Source: Alloacidobacterium dinghuense (GTDB lineage: Bacteria > Acidobacteriota > Terriglobia > Terriglobales > Acidobacteriaceae). Taken from it: a stretch of 64,000 nt of DNA. The stretch is from the NCBI RefSeq assembly GCF_014274465.1, contig NZ_CP060394.1, positions 5,208,001 through 5,272,000 of the forward strand, written 5' to 3'. The notes under the pieces were generated by a model. The model made no database searches. It saw nothing but the letters and a program-made list of their open reading frames with translations, and was not told the origin of the DNA. The translations under genes were made by a program, and so were the position numbers. Within the stretch, counting starts at the first letter, position 1, and each line of letters begins with the position of its first letter. Below are positions 17,929-58,154 of this stretch, in pieces.

Positions 17929-18359
17929 TTGAGTTCTGCACTGCGCCTGCAATGGCTCTTCTGTTCAAGTGTTGACTGGCTCATTGGTGTTTTCAGCGTT
18001 CCGGAGAATTCTCCCCGTTTAGTTATGGATTGAATTACAAATTCTTGCTGTGAATTACGCATTTTCACGCTTCTGGTTTTCGTGTCTGGTCGCACAATTT
18101 CCCAGCACACCAAGTTCGATGTCGGCGAGACCGAGCGGTTATGCCGTCGTTGTTTTCATAACGAACGGTTTAAGCGAAATTCGACACAGAAAAGCGTCTT
18201 TAGATACAGGTCATTTCCATGAATGGATTTCTCTAATTCGCGAGAAGATTCGGGCTACAAAACGCACTGTTCAGCGGATCTCTCAGAATCGTTGCTGATG
18301 CGCTGGACATCTGAGTGTTATAAGAACGTGTTCACCGGTCGGTGTAAGTGGCGTTCAGC
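17929..18359. other. Intergenic stretch before the AraC gene
   Basis: About 430 bp with no supported gene, RNA or repeat. It is more AT-rich than the preceding GC-rich genes, which marks the right-hand edge of that segment. It should hold the divergent promoters for the small protein (minus) and the AraC regulator (plus). Confidence 0.4.
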
Positions 18360-19220
18360 ATGAATATAAGTCGTGCATTTACATCAAAGACGGCTCCGCT
18401 CAGCATTCTGCCAACAGCGAAGCGGGATTTCATGCCAGTCGATGTGGCCGTGGTGGAAGCACCCCGAGGAGAATGGGTACTTCCAGCAGTTAATGATGTC
18501 CGTCTTGGCCTGATCCTCTCCGATTACTCTGCCCACTGGCATAGCTCGAAAGGCCTGCTATCGATAAACGTGAGCGCTGGCAGTCTGTCGATATGCGAAT
18601 TCAACCAACCGCGACGCATGGAGATGCAAAACCCCGCAAACGTCGCCCTCGTGCTTTTGCAGAATGAAATCCTGGAGCAAGCTCTGCACGATAGCCGGAA
18701 GCAACGAGTTGAACTGCAGGAGCGTCATGGGCTACAGGATCACAACATGCGCCATCTCATGGAGATTCTTCTGTACGAAAAGCGTCAGGGTTTTCCCAGT
18801 GGCGGCTTTTTTCTGGACAGCATAGCGGCCGCTTTAGCGAGCCACCTTATTCATTATTATTCTGCTGCTGCACCACTTATATCGGAATCCGTTGGAGGGA
18901 TGGCGCCCTCTACTCTGCGTCGGTGCATCGCATTGATGGAGGCACGCCTCGAAGGAAACCTTCGACTGGATGAATTGGCGTGCGAGGCTGGATTGAGCAC
19001 ATCGCACTTCATTCGGAGTTTCCGCGAGAGTACCGGTAAGACGCCCTATCAATTCCTGCTTGATCGGCGAGTGCAAAGAGCACAAACCTTGATGCGCGAT
19101 CCTCGCACTTCGCTGACTAAGGTTGCCAAGTCGAGCGGCTTCGCCAATCAGCATCACATGGCCCGCATTTTCCGATGTGTCACGGGCATGACGCCAAGCA
19201 ACTACCGTCGGTCGTTGTAA
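18360..19220 (+). CDS. AraC-family transcriptional regulator
   Basis: The product is 286 aa. The first 180 residues form a divergent sensor region. The C-terminal 100 residues hold two helix-turn-helix units: LDELACEAGLSTSHFIRSFR and LTKVAKSSGFANQHHMARIF, joined by TGKTPYQFLLDRRVQRAQ. The terminal TGMTPSNYRR motif is typical. A GTG four codons earlier (18348) is an alternative start. It is related in layout to the AraC protein at 22103 but clearly diverged. No target can be assigned. Confidence 0.85.
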   Translation: MNISRAFTSKTAPLSILPTAKRDFMPVDVAVVEAPRGEWVLPAVNDVRLGLILSDYSAHWHSSKGLLSINVSAGSLSICEFNQPRRMEMQNPANVALVLLQNEILEQALHDSRKQRVELQERHGLQDHNMRHLMEILLYEKRQGFPSGGFFLDSIAAALASHLIHYYSAAAPLISESVGGMAPSTLRRCIALMEARLEGNLRLDELACEAGLSTSHFIRSFRESTGKTPYQFLLDRRVQRAQTLMRDPRTSLTKVAKSSGFANQHHMARIFRCVTGMTPSNYRRSL

Positions 19221-20820: not shown

Positions 20821-21385
20821 GGAATCCGCTTGACCTCTGAGAAATCGTCTGCCCATCCTTCGCCGGGCGCAGAATCCAGAGGAGGAGCTGACACATAGCC
20901 AGGACAATGGGTCTACCACCGATCCGGACTCAGAGTCGGATGACCAACGGATCTGTTTGCCTGGACAACGGCTCGGTTCACCGTTATCGCAACATCCGGC
21001 TGTTTTCTCGTGCTGACGAGAGATGGATCCCGTCGGAGACGCCAATTAGAATCCAGAACTTACACCGAACGCGGTCATCCAGCGTGGCAGTCGAGCACAG
21101 CGCCACCTTTGCCGCTTCAGCTTGACCAGAGCATTTAAGATCCAATGCAGTCCTCCAAAAACATTCCGGGAAGTGTGTCAAAAAATCCCGATCTCATCCC
21201 AGCTTAAACAGTAGATGCGCGTCATCATCCCGGCAATCGAGTTTGTCGCCGACTGAACATTTTGCTCTGTATGCGAGACAAATTGACGGATCATTTACGG
21301 CCAATAAAGCGGTTGATGGAAGACACGGGAGCCAGAGAGCGTTTCGACCGGCGCGACCAATACACGACCATCGTACGGTCGAAAC
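20821..21385. other. Gene-poor stretch before attachment relic B
   Basis: No intact gene. It carries a 31-base exact copy (20928-20958) of part of the secreted-protein gene at 23818. From about 21354 it carries sequence shared with the region before relic C (from 55986). Confidence 0.55.
20928..20958 (+). repeat. 31-bp exact copy of part of the 23818 gene
   Basis: Identical to 24310-24340, where it encodes part of TQSRMTNGSV. Here it translates in one frame as TQSRMTNGSV as well, but the flanks do not continue the homology clearly and there is no intact reading frame. It is probably the last trace of a second gene copy. Confidence 0.7.
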
Positions 21386-22102: not shown

Positions 22103-22942
22103 ATGAGAGTTGAACTCTTTCAACCCGAGTCTGATATAGAGCCACGTCATTGGGTGCGGCATGATCAGGCTTTCGCAATGATGTTGGGGCCCGGCTCAAT
22201 TGAATGGGGCTCAAAGCGTTCCGCGCTGGAAAAGTTCGACTATGCGAAGGGCGACTTAGCACTGTGCCATCGTCATGAGGGAGAGTGGGTTGGACTCATG
22301 AACGTACCGCATTTGCAGCTCGGTATTTCCGACGCGGCCCTGATGGCCAGCTCGGACGGAACTTACGGCGAGGTAGAACTGCACCCTTCACGTAAGTTTG
22401 CTGACTCCCGCTTGAGTGCGCTGGTTGCCGCCGCGCGTGCGGAGATGGTTGCTGGCTTTCCGAGCGGGCGGCTATTTCTGGATTCTGTTGAACAGGCGAT
22501 GGCCGTAGCCCTGGTCACGGGTCATGCAGTAAGGCACCGTCCTGTGCAGATGTACCGAGGCGGACTAGGCTCAGCGCGCTTGCGAAGGATTAAAGAGTTG
22601 GTCGATGCGAAGATCGGGGACGACTTGAGTCTCGACGAGATGGCGCAATCGATAGGATTGAGCACAGCCCATTTCGCGCGGATGTTTCGCAAGTCAACCG
22701 GCGAGACCCCGCATCAATTTGTTCTGCGCCAAAGGGTCGAGCGCGCTAAAGCGATGTTGCGTGCACCCGATGCGCGAGTATTGGACGTGGCCGTGGCCTG
22801 TGGCTTCAGAACTCAGCAGCACTTTGCGCAAGTTTTTCGTGAAGTCTGTGGAGTTAATCCAACTCAGTATCGCCAGGATTTGCTGAATTCCGAAGTGAGT
22901 TGCGTTTCGGAAACCCATTCCGAAGATATGCTACGCCTCTGA
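22103..22942 (+). CDS. AraC-family transcriptional regulator
   Basis: The product is 279 aa. An N-terminal sensor region (about 1-170) contains CHRHEGEWVGLMNVPHLQL. Two helix-turn-helix units follow: LDEMAQSIGLSTAHFARMFR and VLDVAVACGFRTQQHFAQVF, with TGETPHQFVLRQRVERAK between. The GVNPTQYRQD motif closes the domain. It precedes the monooxygenase-like gene and redox operon on the same strand and may regulate them. Confidence 0.86.
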   Translation: MRVELFQPESDIEPRHWVRHDQAFAMMLGPGSIEWGSKRSALEKFDYAKGDLALCHRHEGEWVGLMNVPHLQLGISDAALMASSDGTYGEVELHPSRKFADSRLSALVAAARAEMVAGFPSGRLFLDSVEQAMAVALVTGHAVRHRPVQMYRGGLGSARLRRIKELVDAKIGDDLSLDEMAQSIGLSTAHFARMFRKSTGETPHQFVLRQRVERAKAMLRAPDARVLDVAVACGFRTQQHFAQVFREVCGVNPTQYRQDLLNSEVSCVSETHSEDMLRL

Positions 22943-23170
22943 TTTGTGGTTCGCAGCCACACGTCACCCTCACGGGCTGCCTTTCACCTCGTGGCTAACG
23001 TCGCGGCTCACCGGAATTTGTAAATCATCGCTCCTTGCATCTGCCTCGGCACTGCGTCCTCCGCCAACAATTCTGACTGCGCGCGCCGCAGCTCGTTCGA
23101 AGTCTCGGCGTCGTTCACTCAGGGCACCCTGGAAACCTAATTGAAAGTCGTTGGAGTTCTGTCTCTAGCA

Positions 23171-23275
23171 GCATGAAGTAGCAGGATTCCGACCATCCGA
23201 GCAGAAACCCGCACAACTCCGTATGCGATGTGCAGTTTACTCAGAGTTGTGAGCAGAGGCCGGTTCCAATCGGTC
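23171..23275 (+). repeat. Duplicated leader element, copy 1, with an ACAACTC/GAGTTGT inverted repeat
   Basis: The stretch is homologous to 26462-26676, with a 39-base identical core at 23213-23251. The core starts with ACAACTC and ends with GAGTTGT, a 7-bp inverted repeat 24 bases apart. It lies just upstream of the monooxygenase-like gene; copy 2 lies upstream of an SDR gene. A shared promoter/operator is the simplest reading. Confidence 0.6.
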
Positions 23276-23305
23276 GGGAATAACTCAACGCAGAAGGGTA
23301 ACTCA

Positions 23306-23611
23306 ATGGAAGCAATTGGATTGTTAGTCACGCTCGAAGCACGTCCAGGTAAGGAGGCCGATGCCGAAGCATTTCTGAAGTCGGCTCAGCCTCTCGCGCG
23401 CAATGAAAATGGGACGTTGAAATGGTATGCGATCAAGATCGGGCCGGGGAAGTTCGGCATCTTCGACACCTTTGCAAATGAAGCGGGCCGCAATGCCCAC
23501 CTGACTGGCGAGATTGCGAAGACGTTGGGGGCTCGGGCCAACGAATTGTTCGCGACTCCCCCGCAGGTCGAAAAAGTTGAGATCCTTGCAAGCACACCTT
23601 CGAAGAATTAG
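23306..23611 (+). CDS. Antibiotic biosynthesis monooxygenase (ABM)-like protein
   Basis: The product is 101 aa with one ferredoxin-like ABM domain: GLLVTLEARPGKEADAEAFL, then TLKWYAIKIGPGKFGIFDTF, and NAHLTGEIAKTLGARA. Relatives are cofactor-free monooxygenases or heme-degrading proteins. Without further residues the substrate is unknown. The start at 23306 follows AGAAGGG. It is preceded by the duplicated leader element. Confidence 0.78.
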   Translation: MEAIGLLVTLEARPGKEADAEAFLKSAQPLARNENGTLKWYAIKIGPGKFGIFDTFANEAGRNAHLTGEIAKTLGARANELFATPPQVEKVEILASTPSKN

Positions 23612-23817
23612 GCGGGAACAATTCGAATCGCAAGTCCGATTGATGGCGGTATTCGTGCCCGTTACGTAGAGGACCTGTTCGAATCGTTCTTGGCCTCCGC
23701 GTTTCGTTGAACCCACCCACGAATTCGCGCGGAGAAAGCCGCGAGACTGAACAAGGTCAAATGACCGGCCCAAGATCAACTGATGCTTGATTGCGGGAAC
23801 AACAAGGGAGATATGAA

Positions 23818-24609
23818 ATGTCATACGTCACGGTTGGCAATAAAGAGCTAAGCAGCGCCACACTCCCCTCCAATGCGAACGGACACTCTGGGTCAATGAG
23901 TGCCAAAACCACGAGTCAACGTCTGCTCAACGCAAGCCGTCACCGCATGTTTCCTCTTGCGATGGTCGCTCTAGTGGCAGTCGCTTTTGGATTCAACCCG
24001 GGAGCTCGGGCTCAGGATGTTGCACCACCCATCTCGGGTGCCCTGGGGCAGGTTCAGTCTGTCGGGGATCATTCGATCACAATCCAGGATAAATCTGGGC
24101 TTTTTCATATCGACATCACGCAGCCACTCACAACATATAAGGTAGTTCCCTCGGACCTGAACCACATCACGGACAATGCGTATATTGGTGTCGCATCAAC
24201 GGAGCTGCCGGACGGAACGGAGGTGGCAAAGCAGATCTTCATATTTCCGTCGGAACTGCGAGGCGCCGTGGAAGGCAGCGTTGCAATGGATGCGCAGCCC
24301 GGCGCTACGACTCAGAGTCGGATGACCAACGGATCTGTTTCCCTGCGGCGCGCGCCCGAGTCACACTCTCGAATGACGAACGGCGTCGTGCAGAAAGGAA
24401 CCGGAACAACACTGGTCGTTAACTATCAGGATGGAGCACAGACCATTTCTGTGCCGCCGAATGTTGCGGTCGTAAGTGTTGTTCCCGGCGAGGTTCAGCT
24501 GGCGGCAGGGGAGACGGCCTACGCCAAGACCGATAAACAAACGGATGGCACGCTCAGCACGCATATGATCCTCGTGATCGGCGGACCCCCCTCGGGAAAT
24601 ACCAAGTAA
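23818..24609 (+). CDS. Secreted DUF5666-like protein with an RMTNG motif pair
   Basis: The product is 263 aa. An unusually long N region (about 40 residues) precedes a hydrophobic signal (FPLAMVALVAVAFGF, then PGARAQ). The mature part resembles DUF5666-type beta-barrels: GALGQVQSVGDHSITIQDKS and PDGTEVAKQIFIFP. A spacer carries two copies of RMTNG (QSRMTNGSVS and HSRMTNGVVQ). It is the first gene of an operon with a cytochrome b and a molybdopterin protein, so it may be a periplasmic accessory subunit. Partial copies of this gene lie at 20928 and 26568. Start 23818 has GGGAGA upstream; a later Met may be the real one. Confidence 0.65.
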   Translation: MSYVTVGNKELSSATLPSNANGHSGSMSAKTTSQRLLNASRHRMFPLAMVALVAVAFGFNPGARAQDVAPPISGALGQVQSVGDHSITIQDKSGLFHIDITQPLTTYKVVPSDLNHITDNAYIGVASTELPDGTEVAKQIFIFPSELRGAVEGSVAMDAQPGATTQSRMTNGSVSLRRAPESHSRMTNGVVQKGTGTTLVVNYQDGAQTISVPPNVAVVSVVPGEVQLAAGETAYAKTDKQTDGTLSTHMILVIGGPPSGNTK

Positions 24610-24627
24610 TAGCCAGAGGGATATGCC

Positions 24628-25464
24628 GTGTCATCTGGCAGACAAATCCACAGTGAACGAATGGCTACAGGCGCGCTGTCTCCCAAGGCCCGCGCGCTCG
24701 TAGTCCGTCGGCACCACATCTTAGTACGGATCAGTCATTGGCTTACCATTCCGCTCCTCGTCGGCCTGATTCTGAGCGGCATATCGATCTACTGGGCTTC
24801 GCCCGTTTATCGACATAATCCGGATCCGCAGTCGGGTAATTTCGACTACTTCGCTGACGCGGGAATCTGGATTTGTGCTCACGTTCCATGGCTGCACCAC
24901 TACGCAGACCCGGCGGACTGGGTCTACAACCACAGCAGCCTTGGACCCTTCATGCTCGCCTACGCTCTACGTTTTCACTGGCTCTGCGCGTACTCATTGA
25001 TGCTGAACGGGCTGGTGTACCTTGCAGGCCTCATTCTGGGAGGGGGATGGCGATCACTCCTGCCCCGGCTGAGCGATGCTGGCGGCGTTTTGCAGATGGC
25101 CAGATATTATCTCGGCTTACCCTACGCCATATTGGCTCAGCGCGGCCAAACGCATCCCAGATTTCGCACAAAATACAACCCCCTTCAGCGGCTCTCCTAT
25201 TTTGCCGTTGCGGCTGGCGGCTTCCTCGCTGTCGCCACTGGGTGGGCAATTCACAAACCGGCGCAACTCTCCTGGCTTGCAGCCATCTTCGGCGGATTCG
25301 ATAAGGCCCGCGTTTGGCACTTTTGGCTGATGTGGTTCTTTGTAGTGTTTGCGATTCCGCATGTTGTGTTGGTTATCGCCGCTGGTTGGGACACGTTGGG
25401 GAGCATGATCACCGGCTGGTCCAAGAAATTCGCGTGCTCGGAGGTTTCCGATCATGCGTTCTAA
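24628..25464 (+). CDS. Cytochrome b561/Ni-Fe-hydrogenase b-type membrane subunit
   Basis: The product is 278 aa. Several membrane helices carry candidate heme-ligand histidines: RISHWLTIPLLVGLILSG, LRFHWLCAYSLMLNGLVYL, and HFWLMWFFVVFAIPHVVL. This is the usual b-type cytochrome that links quinols to a periplasmic molybdoenzyme. The start is a GTG at 24628; ATG at 24661 is an alternative. It overlaps the next gene by 11 bases, so the two are co-translated. Confidence 0.83.
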   Translation: MSSGRQIHSERMATGALSPKARALVVRRHHILVRISHWLTIPLLVGLILSGISIYWASPVYRHNPDPQSGNFDYFADAGIWICAHVPWLHHYADPADWVYNHSSLGPFMLAYALRFHWLCAYSLMLNGLVYLAGLILGGGWRSLLPRLSDAGGVLQMARYYLGLPYAILAQRGQTHPRFRTKYNPLQRLSYFAVAAGGFLAVATGWAIHKPAQLSWLAAIFGGFDKARVWHFWLMWFFVVFAIPHVVLVIAAGWDTLGSMITGWSKKFACSEVSDHAF

Positions 25465-26344
25465 ACAGAATGATGTGGAACCAAAGTCCGCCAGGGGATC
25501 TGTTCTCCTGAAGAAGTTTCAGGGCGCATTCAGCGAACGACCGGCCGAACCGATTGAAGTCGAACCCTCGATGCTGCACCGCTGGACTCGGCGTAATTTG
25601 CTGATCTTCGGTGCGGGAGCGCTCGCCACATTTGCAGTTGGCGGATCGCAGCTTCCCCGGGAGGTTTTCGAACGGCTGGGTCTCGATCCAGTTAAGACTG
25701 GACCGGAAGACAAATGGCTTCTGAACAAAGCACTGCGATTCGACGATGATGTGTCAACAGCGCTCTATTCGCAGCATCATTTGGCGCCCACCTATACTAA
25801 ATCGCAGATTACTCCGCTTAAGAACAACTACAACGGCGCGACGCCAGATCCGGCTTATATTTCGGGGTGGCGTCTGACTCTCGATGGGCTGTCCTCCGGG
25901 CTGAGCGTTTCTCTCGACATCGGCACCCTTCTCGCACACCACCAGATCCATGACCAGATTACTCGCCTCGTGTGTGTGGAGGGTTGGAGCGCAATCGCAT
26001 GGTGGTCCGGTTTGAGATTTGACGATCTCTTGCATGCTTATCCGCCGGTGTCCCAAGCAAAATGGGCCCACATCGAATCGGCGATCAATCTCGACGCAAA
26101 CGGGAATTCGGATCCATATTTCGTTTCGATTGACCTGCTGACAGCCGAGCATCCGCAGTCTCTACTGGCGACTCACCTGAACGGAAAGCCTCTCACAGTG
26201 GAGCACGGGGCTCCGCTGCGACTGCTTGTACCTGTGAAACTAGGTTTGAAGAACATCAAGGCAATTACCCGGATTACCTATACTCAAGACGAACCGCCGG
26301 ACTATTGGGCAAAGCGCGGGTATTCACGCTATGACGGAATTTGA
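25454..26344 (+). CDS. Molybdopterin-dependent oxidoreductase (SUOX fold), exported
   Basis: The product is 296 aa. An N-terminal cytoplasmic stretch leads into TRRNLLIFGAGALATFAVGG, a Tat-type signal or anchor with the twin arginine. The molybdopterin domain has RLVCVEGWSAIAWWSGLRF, with Cys as the molybdenum ligand as in sulfite oxidase and MsrP. YFVSIDLLTAEHPQSLLA and a later APLRLLVPVKLGLKNIK are typical of this fold. Together with the cytochrome it forms a membrane-linked periplasmic oxidoreductase; the substrate is unknown. GGAGG at 25440-25444 supports the start. Confidence 0.87.
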   Translation: MRSKQNDVEPKSARGSVLLKKFQGAFSERPAEPIEVEPSMLHRWTRRNLLIFGAGALATFAVGGSQLPREVFERLGLDPVKTGPEDKWLLNKALRFDDDVSTALYSQHHLAPTYTKSQITPLKNNYNGATPDPAYISGWRLTLDGLSSGLSVSLDIGTLLAHHQIHDQITRLVCVEGWSAIAWWSGLRFDDLLHAYPPVSQAKWAHIESAINLDANGNSDPYFVSIDLLTAEHPQSLLATHLNGKPLTVEHGAPLRLLVPVKLGLKNIKAITRITYTQDEPPDYWAKRGYSRYDGI

Positions 26345-26461
26345 ACTAGACGCCCCGAGAGTGCCTACGCAACTCATTCGAACCCTCGCAGTGATCTCGC
26401 TCAAGACAGCCTGAGACAGTCTACCGACTGGTTGCAATTAGCTGGAGATCCGCCACAGGGT

Positions 26462-26676
26462 GCATGAATGTAGCAAGAATCCGACCACCCCAGCAGTAAT
26501 CCGAACAACTCCGTATGCGATGTGCAGTTTACTCAGAGTTGTGCTCAGAGCAAATGTATCAACAAATCGGCTCGCAATAGTCGCTCTGTTAGCAGCTGTT
26601 TATGGGTTGAAACGGGGAGCTCGCGCTCAAGATGTTCCACAGATTTGGGTGCCCCGAGGTTGGTTCCAATCGGCCT
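26462..26676 (+). repeat. Duplicated leader element, copy 2, split by a gene remnant
   Basis: Homologous to 23171-23275. The 39-base core is at 26505-26543 and is identical to copy 1. The shared end GGTTCCAATCGG comes about 110 bp later here because a remnant of the secreted-protein gene (26568-26678) sits inside. Confidence 0.58.
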
Positions 26677-26678
26677 GA
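26568..26678 (+). pseudogene. 5' remnant of a second copy of the 23818 secreted-protein gene
   Basis: The frame reads RLAIVALLAAVYGLKRGARA then QDVPQIWVPRGWFQS and stop. It aligns with the signal region of the 23818 protein (PLAMVALVAVAFGFNPGARA, QDVAPPISGALGQVQS). Only the signal and about 15 mature codons remain. Confidence 0.78.
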
Positions 26679-26702
26679 ACCGAACAATAAAGGAGATTAG
26701 AA

Positions 26703-27428
26703 ATGGTAAATACGCGGAAAACAGCAATCGTTACCGGCGCCTCACAAGGTATCGGCGCGGGTCTCGTGGATGAGTTCTTGAAACGAGGTTACAACGTAGT
26801 CGCAAACTCGCGAAACGTGACTAAAGCCAATCCATTCGCAGCGTCCGCGAATCTTGCACTGGTCGATGGAGACATCGGCGACCCGCGCACGGCTGCAAAG
26901 ATCGTGGATACTGCCCTATCCCGATTTGGCCGGATCGATGTGCTGATCAACAATGCTGGTGTTTTTATTCCGAAGCCTTTCACCGAGTACACGACTGAAG
27001 ACTTTAACACCCTAGTCTCCACCACACTAGCAGGCTTTCTCTACGTATCACAGCTCACCGTGAAGCAAATGCTGGAGCAGAAATCGGGCAGCATCATCAA
27101 CGTCTCAACCACCCTGGTCGACCAACCGATCGCAGGTGTAGGGGCAGCTGTTCAAATTATGCTGAAGGGCGCCTTGAATGCGGTGACGCGCGCACTCGCC
27201 ATTGAATACGCGAAGGATGGCATTCGTGTAAACACCATAGCGCCGGGAGTGATCAATACTCCCATGCATAAACCCGAAACCCACGACTTTCTCAAAGGGC
27301 TGCACCCAGTCGACAGGCTAGGTGAAGTTAAAGAAGTCGTCGACGCGGCTTTGTTTCTGACCGACGCCACGTTCACCTCGGGCGAAATACTGCACGTGGA
27401 TGGCGGCGCTCACGCAGGCAAATGGTAA
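26703..27428 (+). CDS. Short-chain dehydrogenase lacking the usual catalytic Tyr
   Basis: The product is 241 aa. TGASQGIG gives the cofactor loop, NNAG the central motif, and SIINVS the catalytic Ser strand. At the YxxxK site the sequence is QIMLKGALNAVTRAL, so Tyr is replaced by Gln. The remaining SDR tail (GVINTPMH, FTSGEILHVDGGAHAG) is intact. Such Tyr-less members exist in a widespread subgroup; activity is doubtful or altered. The gene overlaps the following RidA gene by seven bases. Confidence 0.85.
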   Translation: MVNTRKTAIVTGASQGIGAGLVDEFLKRGYNVVANSRNVTKANPFAASANLALVDGDIGDPRTAAKIVDTALSRFGRIDVLINNAGVFIPKPFTEYTTEDFNTLVSTTLAGFLYVSQLTVKQMLEQKSGSIINVSTTLVDQPIAGVGAAVQIMLKGALNAVTRALAIEYAKDGIRVNTIAPGVINTPMHKPETHDFLKGLHPVDRLGEVKEVVDAALFLTDATFTSGEILHVDGGAHAGKW

Positions 27429-28497: not shown

Positions 28498-28611
28498 GCC
28501 GGACCTGTAGCAGACCGTTTTACAAGGACTGCGTCGGCTCTTGCGGACTCTGATTGCGGCAAGAGCGTGATGAACTATGGCTTCAATCTTGATGCAACGA
28601 AGGAGAAAAAT

Positions 28612-29406
28612 ATGACTCTCTCGAAAACATACCGAATTGCTTTGATTGCGTTTGCAGCATTCCTACTGACAGCAGTGTTTCACACGAGAGCGGTCGCTCA
28701 GACGAACTCTTCTCAAGCGGTTAGAAACATTGTCATTGTTCACGGTGCGTGGGCCGATGGATCAAGCTGGTCCAAAGTGATTCCACTGCTTCAAGCCAAG
28801 GGATTACATGTGGTCGCTGTGCAGAACCCATTGAGCTCTCTGGCTGATGACGTCGCCGCCACCAAGCGTGCCATCGCATTGCAGGATGGCCCTGTACTGC
28901 TAGTGGGCCATTCCTACGGGGGAGTGGTTATCACGGAGGCAGGAAACGATCCAAAGGTAGTCGGGTTGGTTTATGTGGCTGCCCTCGCTCCGTCGGATGG
29001 TGAGTCCGTTGCTTCGGTCACCAAACCGTTTCCGCCGGCTCCGCTAGGCAGCGAAGTCCGGGCGGATGCTGAAAGTTTTCTGACGGTGACCCCAAAGGGA
29101 ATCGCTGAGGACTTCGCCCAGGATCTGCCAGACAAGGAGAAGCAGCTGTTGACGGCGACACAGGGTCCCACAGCGGCAGCTGTTTTCGGGGCCACAATCA
29201 CAACTGCCGCATGGAAGACCAAGCCATCTTGGTCCGTGATTGCCAGCGATGATCGCGCCGTTTCTCCGGAACTCGAGAAGGCCGAAGCGGCGGCAATGAA
29301 GGCCACATCGATCACTGTTCCCTCCAGTCACGTGCCAATGCTTTCTCACCCGAAAGAAGTAGCAGACTTAATCGAGCAAGCTGCAGCTAAAGCCGGGCGC
29401 CAATGA
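28612..29406 (+). CDS. Secreted alpha/beta hydrolase
   Basis: The product is 264 aa with a signal peptide ending near AVAQ. The oxyanion region is VIVHGAWADGSSW and the nucleophile elbow is LLVGHSYGG with Ser101. SDDRAVSPELE holds the acid, and PSSHVPMLSHPKEVADLI holds the His. The EstX/salicylate-esterase-like profile matches a paralog at 52841-53644. AAGGAG at 28600-28605 supports this start. Likely a periplasmic esterase; substrate unknown. Confidence 0.85.
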   Translation: MTLSKTYRIALIAFAAFLLTAVFHTRAVAQTNSSQAVRNIVIVHGAWADGSSWSKVIPLLQAKGLHVVAVQNPLSSLADDVAATKRAIALQDGPVLLVGHSYGGVVITEAGNDPKVVGLVYVAALAPSDGESVASVTKPFPPAPLGSEVRADAESFLTVTPKGIAEDFAQDLPDKEKQLLTATQGPTAAAVFGATITTAAWKTKPSWSVIASDDRAVSPELEKAEAAAMKATSITVPSSHVPMLSHPKEVADLIEQAAAKAGRQ

Positions 29407-52840: not shown

Positions 52841-53644
52841 TTATTTCGAGACGGCACGTGTTGCACTTTCAATTACATCTGCAACTTCCTGAGGATGTGA
52901 GACGTAGACTGAGTGGCTGGCGCCTGCGACTTCGACCGTATGGCTGTTAGCCCGTTTGGCATACCAACGTTCCAAATCCGGATTGATAGTGCGATCGCTT
53001 CCCGCCACTAGCATCCAGCTCGGCTTAGTTCTCCAGGCAGCTGTGGTGATCGTCGCTGAGAAATTGTCCGCAAAGTTGAGCACCTGCGAGCGCGCCATGA
53101 ATGCGGCCCGATCATCGGAAAGGTCAGCCGCGAACAATTCATGAAATTGCACAGGGTTGATATATGTGAAGCCATCAGGCGTTTTCTTAATAGCGCCCGA
53201 TTTGGCGAGATCGCTCGGGTATCGCTTTCCGTCGTCTGACTCTTTCTCGCCGGCATCCGGCATGTGGGCCGCGATATACACCAAGCCCAGAACCGATGGA
53301 TCCGTGCCTGCTTCCGTAATCACAGCTCCGCCATAGCTGTGCCCAACAAGAACGCACGGCCCGTCTTGCATTGCGAGGACACGCTTCACGGCAGTTACAT
53401 CGTCCTGGAAGGATGTCTCTGGCTCTTGGACAATGCTGACGTGGTAGCCGTCCTTGGCGAGAATGTCGTAGACGCCTTTCCAGCCAGAACCATCGGCCCA
53501 GGCGCCGTGAACCAGAACAATATTCCGGACGCGCTGCTCTTGGTTTTGCGCAGACAGTACGCCGCAGGTCAACAGCGATAAAACGATGCAAAGGGACTGA
53601 GAGATTCCTCGTACTCCTCGCATAGGCTTTATTGAATAACCCAT
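52841..53644 (-). CDS. Secreted alpha/beta hydrolase
   Basis: The product is 267 aa with a signal peptide (SLCIVLSLLTCGVLSAQ). NIVLVHGAWADGSGWKGV and VLVGHSYGGAVITEAGTDPS mark the oxyanion and nucleophile sites; ASHSVYVSHPQEVADVIESA carries the His. It is a clear paralog of 28612-29406. AAGGAG precedes the ATG. Likely one operon with the azoreductase downstream and the metallo-beta-lactamase-fold gene upstream. Confidence 0.86.
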   Translation of the reverse strand: MGYSIKPMRGVRGISQSLCIVLSLLTCGVLSAQNQEQRVRNIVLVHGAWADGSGWKGVYDILAKDGYHVSIVQEPETSFQDDVTAVKRVLAMQDGPCVLVGHSYGGAVITEAGTDPSVLGLVYIAAHMPDAGEKESDDGKRYPSDLAKSGAIKKTPDGFTYINPVQFHELFAADLSDDRAAFMARSQVLNFADNFSATITTAAWRTKPSWMLVAGSDRTINPDLERWYAKRANSHTVEVAGASHSVYVSHPQEVADVIESATRAVSK

Positions 53645-56613: not shown

Positions 56614-57393
56614 TTACTGCAGGACCTGGCAGCCTGCGCACCGAATTATCTCGATGTTTTTGTTTTCCTCTCTGAGGAAACGAGATGTATCGCCCACCTC
56701 GAGCACCCAGGTCAAGGCTGTGATCGGGCCGACTCCAGGGATAGTTCTGAGCCGCTTCAACCGATCACGCAGCAGAGGATCCCGCTCCAGCGTGCGAAGC
56801 AATGTCGAGTCCAGGCGGATCGCACGATCGATCTGTTGGCGGCAAATCTTCAGTAGTGGCCGTATGTTGTCTCTCACTTCTTCGTTGGTGGAAAGCAACT
56901 CGTCGAAGTAAGCCATGCGGTGCAATCGAAGCTTGTCATAGCTGACCCCGCTTTCCATGTGCAACCCCGATACTCGGTTCTTCATTTGCGCCATCTGCTG
57001 CATCACCAGGTTTCGGTAGCGCAAGGTACGGCGCCGGTCCCGGATCTCCGTGGAAGCCATATGGCGCTCGGGCAGGAAATCGCATCGCAGGCAGTCGGCG
57101 ATCCTGCTGGCATCGATCGTGTCGTTCTTCTTCTTGGCCGCGGCGATCGCTCGCAGCATCAGCGGATGCGCGACCTTCACCTTCTCTGCGTGCGGCCGCA
57201 GATGGTCATAAATCCAGCCGCTGAAGATCGTCGCTTCCATCGCCATCGTGCGCGGTTGTGGAAGGGTTCTGATCCACGCATCCAACTCGGTCCGCGTCGA
57301 TCCGATCCTGCCTTCCTGATGCACACAACCAGCCGCGTCCTTCACGCAGTAGCTGATCGTCTTCTTGTGAACATCCAGTCCGATGTAGTACAT
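56614..57393 (-). pseudogene. IS110-family transposase, C-terminally truncated
   Basis: The product would be 259 aa. The DEDD catalytic domain is present: YIGLDVHKKTISYCVKDAAG, TMAMEATIFSGW, and KKNDTIDASRIADCL. IPGVGPITALTWVLEVGDTS begins the Transposase_20 domain, but after RFLREENKN the sequence diverges and stops. The conserved Ser-containing end is missing, so it cannot transpose unaided. Confidence 0.85.
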
Positions 57394-57497
57394 GTCGTCT
57401 CTGAGGAGCCTCCGAGGTTGTTCTCTGAATCAGCTGCCGCTGAGTTCAGCTTCTTGTAACACCTCGTGCTCCTCTTCGACTCCTGATGAACACCTCG

Positions 57498-58154
57498 CTA
57501 AAGTGTTGTACCTGTTGCAGGGGCCAAGTAGAAGCCCAGTGCAGCAGCTTGTTGTCGAAGTCGATTTTCGGCGCGAGTTCTTGATGCGATGTCGGCCCTC
57601 TGGAAGACCTCTTCGGTATAGGGCTGCTTCGTTGAGAGAAGGTGGTAGACGATGCGTGCGAGCTTGTGGGCCGTGGCAGTAACCGCGGCAGGCGCCCCCA
57701 ATCTCCATTTGGCCTTCCGATAAAATTCGCCGAGATGGTTGTTGGCGTGATATAGGCACTGTGCTCCGAGACGGAGAGCGATGGCAGCCCTGTTCTTTAC
57801 GTGCCTCGTTTGCGAGTGGAGGACCTTGCCTCCGCTGACCTTCTTTTCCGGGCACAGTCCTAACCAAGATCCAAACGCAGATGCATTTCTAAAACGCGAA
57901 ACGTCGGGTCCGATTTCCATGATGATTGTGTGTGCTGTCAGGGTGCTAAGCCCAGGTACGTCCGTAAGGTCGACCCCAGCGATTCGATACAGTTCGGACT
58001 TGAGATCGAATGCCGGCTCGTTTCCGGCTCGCTGGTATATACGCTTCTTCGTCCCAGAAGGTCGTTTCGGTTGCGCATTCGCCGATCTAGGCATAGCTCG
58101 CAAGTGCTTCTCCTTCTGGGCTCTTGTGAAGATCTCATGCATCTCCCTTTTCAC
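57498..58154 (-). pseudogene. Second IS110-family transposase, N-terminally truncated
   Basis: The frame covers the C-terminal domain: LYRIAGVDLTDVPGLSTLTA, ASAFGSWLGLCPEKKVSGGK, then TRHVKNRAAIALRLGAQCLY and a full end. The catalytic DEDD half is absent. The Transposase_20 sequence differs from the beginning of that domain in the 56614 gene, so the two are different elements lying head to tail, not one split gene. Confidence 0.82.

Follow-up and report, generated by a model that had tools for sequence, protein, structure and literature searches.

A secreted protein with paired RMTNG motifs is co-inherited with a narrow clade of cytochrome–molybdoenzyme gene pairs

Main

A 64,000-nt stretch of the genome of Alloacidobacterium dinghuense, a soil acidobacterium (NZ_CP060394.1, positions 5,208,001 to 5,272,000; the window), contains three adjacent genes at 23818–26344 that encode a secreted protein with two RMTNG motifs (P0001), a cytochrome b561-type membrane protein (P0002) and an exported molybdopterin oxidoreductase (P0003). 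This three-gene set is real, co-inherited and narrowly distributed. Our favoured reading, to which we give a probability of about 45%, is that these genes specify a methionine-sulfoxide reductase of the periplasm together with its own dedicated secreted client, P0001.

In the mechanism that we propose, P0002 would draw electrons from the quinol pool and, by way of its b hemes, deliver them to P0003, an MsrP-like molybdenum enzyme exported by Tat; P0002 and P0003 probably act as one unit, as their fusion in one relative suggests. P0003 would reduce methionine sulfoxide, and its preferred target would be P0001, a Sec-exported OB/DUF5666-like protein presenting conserved Met residues on a presumably flexible linker. 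The job of P0001 itself would require both motif Met residues in the reduced state, and Cu(I)/Ag(I) binding, partner binding or a redox switch would suit it better than bulk scavenging.

A conserved motif pair in a secreted protein

The three open reading frames (ORFs) lie on the plus strand at 23818–24609 (P0001), 24628–25464 (P0002) and 25454–26344 (P0003), with an 18-base gap between the first two and an 11-base overlap between the second and third. P0001 starts at an ATG (23818) lying 7 bases 3′ of a ribosome-binding site, AAGGGAG; a later ATG at 23896 has no such site. The cluster of three exported or membrane redox genes is genuine, and its boundaries are exactly those proposed in a first-pass annotation made from the sequence alone. 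A sigma-70 scan of 22900–26900 returned no promoter-like sites, and terminator-like sites there numbered 5 against 3.8 expected.

The N terminus of P0001 is long, with a hydrophobic stretch at residues 44–62 followed by ARA-Q, which by inspection is a predicted Sec-type signal. The paired motifs reported by the first-pass annotation are present at residues 168–172 and 185–189 and place Met at positions 169 and 186. Both are invariant in 13/13 aligned P0001 proteins at identities down to 38%, and invariant columns make up 11 of the 12 positions in two six-residue stretches around the motifs versus 33 of 195 elsewhere; the orthologue in genome G608 carries RMSNG twice. Cys is absent from the mature part of all 13 proteins. 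The motif Met residues are the only ones of the mature part in eight (L068–L073, L075 and L076), which, if P0001 is indeed a client, would make these orthologues unusually clean substrates for assays of MsrP-type enzymes; two others have three Met residues (L074 and L077), and the protein of the window, L067 and L078 have four. Across the 6.27-Mb genome, DNA that could encode RMTNG (with R as CGN only) occurs at three sites: both motifs plus a remnant at 20937. The ratio of nonsynonymous to synonymous substitution rates (dN/dS) of P0001 is 0.13–0.33 among relatives with usable dS, and that of P0002 and P0003 is 0.11–0.24.

An AlphaFold model of P0001, built on an alignment of 13 rows, consists mostly of strands at a mean predicted local distance difference test (pLDDT) score of 66, so that the beta-barrel proposed earlier rests on a model of moderate confidence. 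In this beta-rich model the RMTNG motifs sit in a low-confidence linker: pLDDT falls below 50 at model residues 104–120 and 126–148, which lie around the motifs (Met169 and Met186 are model residues 121 and 138).

Searches for relatives of P0001 gave little. Pfam and NCBIfam returned no meaningful match, a single-sequence search of the PDB had a best E of 1.4, a profile search of the PDB found nothing at E ≤ 5, and Foldseek with the model found nothing at E ≤ 1e-3. For the model, VIA-align ranks apo-CusF first (Z 8.0, 73 aligned, rmsd (root-mean-square deviation) 5.6), with other OB folds at up to 7.6, a background-level match that we take only as a hint; the CusF family is not among the Pfam matches of nine P0001 family members. 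The label DUF5666-like has indirect support: the window protein has no match to PF18914 (cutoff 27 bits) at E ≤ 1, the G608 orthologue (locus L108) reaches 20.4 bits, below that cutoff, and two of the nine family members match at a lax E ≤ 5, the better at 1.9e-5.

Weak P0001 relatives found phylum-wide at L085 (1495–1860) and L088 (1492–1860) are small secreted-looking DUF5666 proteins above the Pfam cutoff with Met-rich C-terminal tails, and a protein at L089 (1429–1794) resembles them. Their neighbours look, from sequence, like genes for a CusC-type outer-membrane protein and cytochrome c; Pfam confirms the cytochrome c next to L088, and we read a further gene in that neighbourhood as a putative CPMHP-type metal-binding protein. 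Standing beside efflux- and cytochrome c-like genes, these three DUF5666 proteins may form a CusF-like copper group. As a firm label for P0001, copper chaperone was set aside: CusB-type genes adjoin only two of nine more distant cytochrome–molybdoenzyme pairs (L058 and L061), copper/efflux-type neighbours were otherwise noted for the small DUF5666 relatives, and a rough motif scan across nine trio loci gave one match, an ORF antisense to P0001.

An MsrP-like enzyme with a b561-type partner

P0002 passes the cutoff of PF01292, prokaryotic cytochrome b561 (4.7e-10, 40 bits, cutoff 30.1), which bears out its first-pass assignment as a b-type cytochrome. It has four predicted hydrophobic segments and five His residues (H29, H37, H117, H231 and H245) invariant in 16 sequences.

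P0003 has an Oxidored_molyb domain (PF00174, 1.1e-25) and a twin Arg, R46-R47, ahead of a hydrophobic stretch, and in a PDB search its nearest relative is YedY/MsrP (1xdq, 6.4e-18). Its Cys174, in RLVCVEGWS, aligns with RMRCVEAWS of 1xdq; the expectation that this exported molybdopterin protein keeps its Cys ligand is thereby confirmed. The twin Arg, Cys174, Glu176 of the CxE stretch and Asn125 are all invariant in 16 sequences.

Sulfite had been listed among the candidate substrates, and a sulfite dehydrogenase that passes its electrons to P0002 would belong to the same fold family, with weak matches of P0003 to the SorT, SorA and SoxC models and to PDB sulfite oxidases. We rejected this very improbable reading: the model scores of 39.2, 32 and 25.4 bits lie far below the respective cutoffs of 570, 600 and 420, and the Cys stretch, CVEGWS, is of YedY type.

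Co-inheritance with one narrow clade

Several lines of evidence tie P0001 to a particular clade of the cytochrome–molybdoenzyme pair. The genome samples used (200, 396, 392 and 298) are overlapping draws from larger groups; in that of 396, only seven candidates were scored for each genome, and some distant relatives of P0001 may have escaped notice. Apparent absences of P0001 were rechecked by tblastn.

First, the pair itself is widespread and ordinary. A P0003 homologue (E ≤ 1e-10) is present in 190/200 sampled genomes of the window's family and a P0001-like gene (E ≤ 1e-3) in 9/200. At nine more distant pairs (L057–L065, picked from 30 P0003 loci), both pair genes are present in 9/9 and P0001 in 0/9, as sought by blastp on ORFs and by tblastn, the latter using five variants of P0001 and a threshold of E ≤ 0.01.

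Second, close P0003 homologues (E ≤ 1e-40) occur in 17 genomes, and in all of these ORFs were mapped and seemingly missing genes sought by tblastn. One genome, G182, was left out of the count because its contig begins within the cytochrome gene. P0001 is present in 11/16 judgeable genomes, 11/13 within the window's family and 0/3 outside it. It lies 5′ of the pair in ten (G000, G110, G142, G158, G117, G340, G414, G596, G608 and G628); in the eleventh, G014, the contig with the pair starts inside P0001, and a nearly full P0001 copy stands at the edge of another contig. Close pairs without P0001 are found in G672 (intact), G615 (decayed) and three genomes of other families (G375, G434 and G462), of which G375 shows only 537 bases upstream of the pair. 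The secreted gene is co-inherited with one narrow clade of the pair. Whether it is absent from most homologous operons, the outcome that the first-pass annotation had set against its own proposal, depends on scope: it is absent from most pairs when all homologous ones are counted and present in most close ones.

Third, a FastTree phylogeny built from 25 P0003 proteins supports the close clade at 0.999. G672 branches inside the own-family part of the tree (split support 0.945), and we therefore read P0001 as having been lost there. G608, which has P0001, falls with weak support (0.546) beside G375 and G434, which lack it, so that P0001 may have been either gained or lost at the base. G462 is placed among the distant pairs; leaving it out changes the count to 11/15.

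Fourth, the association holds when viewed from P0001. A profile scan covering 84,980 species, with one genome per species, found 12 P0001 loci, seven of which (L070, L072–L074 and L076–L078) belong to genomes of the close-P0003 set. Eleven carry the pair or its remnants, and the twelfth (L070) ends at a contig edge. The trio is intact or fused at six (L072, L073, L074, L076, L077 and L078), including Edaphobacter lichenicola M8UP30 (L074/L101), in which P0002 and P0003 form one in-frame ORF of 647 aa (L074, 6679–8622). At L069 all three genes are present, the second and third interrupted by frame breaks and the first truncated where the contig starts; at L075 the third gene is broken off; and of P0003 the last 21 residues remain at L068 and residues 111–275, in two frames, at L071. 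These four are contigs of metagenome-assembled genomes, in which misassembly is possible. From an isolate, E. aggregans DSM 19364 (L067, 2263–2820), P0001 is still open, the cytochrome matches only to residue 185 and the molybdoenzyme is missing. Downstream of the L067 set, on the other strand, is an AcrB-type efflux gene.

Relation to known systems

The first-pass annotation called the set a candidate for an undescribed system, which is too strong given what excerpts of the papers cited here report. A heme b membrane part with a molybdenum cofactor (MoCo) domain is a described kind, exemplified by Sco3746 and MsrPQ, and the Sco3746-type protein has a twin-Arg motif before its last membrane segment (PMC5449189). 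The fused E. lichenicola protein has the same layout of heme b membrane part and MoCo domain, whereas the genes are separate in the window; the excerpt describes no secreted partner for Sco3746. The Brucella operon bcrXQP, which responds to hypochlorous acid by induction, joins a Met-rich peptide, BcrX, and MsrPQ homologues in one transcript, and BcrX has been proposed as the substrate (PMC8315932); yedYZ-mrpX of Azospira is an earlier case (PMC8315932, PMC4623255). Like the operon of the window, they combine an MsrP-type enzyme with a heme protein of the membrane and a secreted protein that bears Met (PMC4623255, PMC8315932). MrpX and BcrX are Met-rich peptides, however, whereas P0001 is an unrelated, folded-looking DUF5666-like protein, and the membrane partners belong to different families. 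Escherichia coli MsrP/MsrQ (YedY/YedZ) likewise has a twin-Arg MsrP-like enzyme with the same Cys stretch next to a heme b-type membrane protein; the window differs in its b561-type partner, in a P0003 score below the MsrP cutoff and in the extra secreted gene. Finally, the copper-binding Met residues of CusF in E. coli undergo repair by MsrPQ (PMC9302797); CusF and the Met-rich DUF5666 proteins are, like P0001, secreted and Met-containing, may share an OB-like fold with it, and differ from it in motif. We propose P0001 as a dedicated client because the window shares the logic of bcrXQP and yedYZ-mrpX, together with the CusF precedent; the co-inheritance, the natural fusion, the MsrP-like sequence of P0003, the invariant motifs with few other Met residues, the low pLDDT around them and the recurrence of OsmC, RidA, ABM and AraC neighbours also speak for it. 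Our searches for literature on methionine sulfoxide reductase in Edaphobacter, or on YedY, cytochrome b and molybdopterin in Acidobacteria, found none.

If this reading is right, MsrP-class reductases can have a specific folded client encoded alongside them, DUF5666, a family of unknown function, gains a testable role, that of secreted proteins whose conserved Met residues must stay reduced, and operons that unite a secreted client with a molybdoenzyme and a heme protein of the membrane have been assembled more than once from different secreted and membrane parts. A bolder version, which we regard as tentative and on the doubtful side, is that the Met pair of P0001 would act as a soft-metal site or a reversible redox switch, which the cell envelope would read or use, and that a quinol-driven molybdenum reductase of its own would reset it; such a couple would have arisen independently of MrpX and MsrQ.

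Evidence against a dedicated client, and alternatives

A number of observations weigh against P0001 as a dedicated client. The two strongest concern association. Distant relatives bearing MTNG are found without the pair (two in G072, one in G058; the pair is likewise not at the locus of another P0001-like gene in G033), from which it follows that the motif is either older than the pairing or independent of it; one of these relatives (L054) has lost the second motif. Conversely, G672 keeps its intact close pair with an exported-looking DUF4440 protein in place of P0001. The gene set is also patchy and, as detailed above, broken in several records. With respect to the enzymes, P0003 scores 104.9 bits against the MsrP model NF003767, half of the curated cutoff of 207, and P0002 belongs to PF01292 rather than to an MsrQ-type family; the Pfam and NCBIfam matches of P0002 at E ≤ 1 include none of the ferric-reductase/MsrQ kind. 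As to P0001, the window protein has four Met residues, not two; the low pLDDT around the motifs may stem from the shallow alignment instead of disorder, and modelling the N half by itself lowered the mean pLDDT to 59.6, too poor for a structure search; and between the window and L067, the closest pair, dN/dS is 0.55, so that selection looks weak. The ORF lists of the complete trios, most neighbours in which were not run against Pfam, show no copper-type gene, a further difference from CusF.

The alternative that survives best, although we think it rather unlikely, is general periplasmic repair, in which P0002–P0003 would, as MsrPQ does, serve a wide set of envelope proteins, with P0001 being simply co-regulated, for example as a stress-induced envelope protein. 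MsrP is described as having a broad substrate range (PMC8076862, excerpt), the near-universal P0003 homologues of the family mostly lack P0001, and the genes around the trio resemble a stress set (OsmC, RidA and ABM). General repair would predict neither P0001 5′ of the pair in 11/13 judgeable own-family genomes nor an invariant pair of Met motifs.

That invariance could also be explained if P0001 were a docking or maturation subunit of a P0002–P0003 complex acting on some other S- or N-oxide, with RMTNG as its binding elements. Conservation of the whole motif and not of Met alone, extending to the doubled RMSNG of G608, fits such a role, as does clade-specific co-inheritance; we consider it improbable, since G672 and the three other-family pairs have no P0001 to dock.

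More doubtful still is a sacrificial oxidant sink as proposed for MrpX and BcrX, with Met residues soaking up hypochlorite-type oxidants and P0003 recycling them. The three-part gene logic is shared with bcrXQP and yedYZ-mrpX (excerpts as above), yet a mature P0001 with 2 to 4 Met residues (n = 13) is not Met-rich and would be a poor sink, and a sink does not call for conservation of the R, T, N and G residues that surround the Met residues. We rejected a Met-rich sink on the count of Met residues.

Neighbouring genes, repeats and remnants

Upstream of the trio, on the plus strand as are all features that follow to the RMTNG remnant, are an AraC-family regulator (22103–22942), whose counterpart at the equivalent position in E. 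lichenicola M8UP30 is 91% identical, and, directly upstream, a small ABM-like protein (23306–23611; blastp, with PF03992 at E 0.01, below cutoff), relatives of which lie 5′ of P0001 in several related genomes. OsmC, RidA, ABM, AraC and SDR genes recur near the trio, and the recurrence of ABM, OsmC, RidA and SDR neighbours suggests an inducible stress set. ABM-type genes stand near P0001 in the window, L067, L072, L073, L074, L076 and L102; none was found in L077, L078 or L108, nor in the contig extents of L068–L071 and L075.

An 81-bp direct repeat brackets the block, its two copies being the only ones found in the genome: one lies before the ABM gene (23178–23258) and the other, 89% identical, after P0003 and before an SDR gene (26470–26550). 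The element also precedes the ABM gene in L067, L073/L046, L074/L101 and L106, with a second copy 3′ of the fused gene in E. lichenicola. Its AGCA...CCG half-sites (at 23180 and 23200) are 20 bp apart, as expected for an AraC-type operator, and an AraC gene lies upstream; we regard the element as a candidate operator of this type. Reading the paired repeats as transposon marks was set aside, the element preceding the ABM gene in several species.

Two partial copies of P0001 lie nearby: a degenerate copy of its signal-peptide coding region (26571–26640, 76%) and a 37-bp remnant of its RMTNG stretch (20927–20963, 97%). At L051 (8050–8598), an ABM-like stretch is preceded by, and fused to, a similar remnant of the 5′ part of P0001. 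The 5′ part of P0001 seems, from these sequences, to have been copied around.

A second AraC-family regulator (18348–19220) lies 3 kb from that at 22103–22942; it is 33% identical to the E. lichenicola gene mentioned above, and the two regulators are likely paralogues. Elsewhere in the window, fragments at 56614–58154 appear to resemble IS110-type transposases, and two alpha/beta-hydrolase-like ORFs (28567–29406 and 52841–53644) have near-identical starts of their mature parts (VRNIV-VHGAWADGS).

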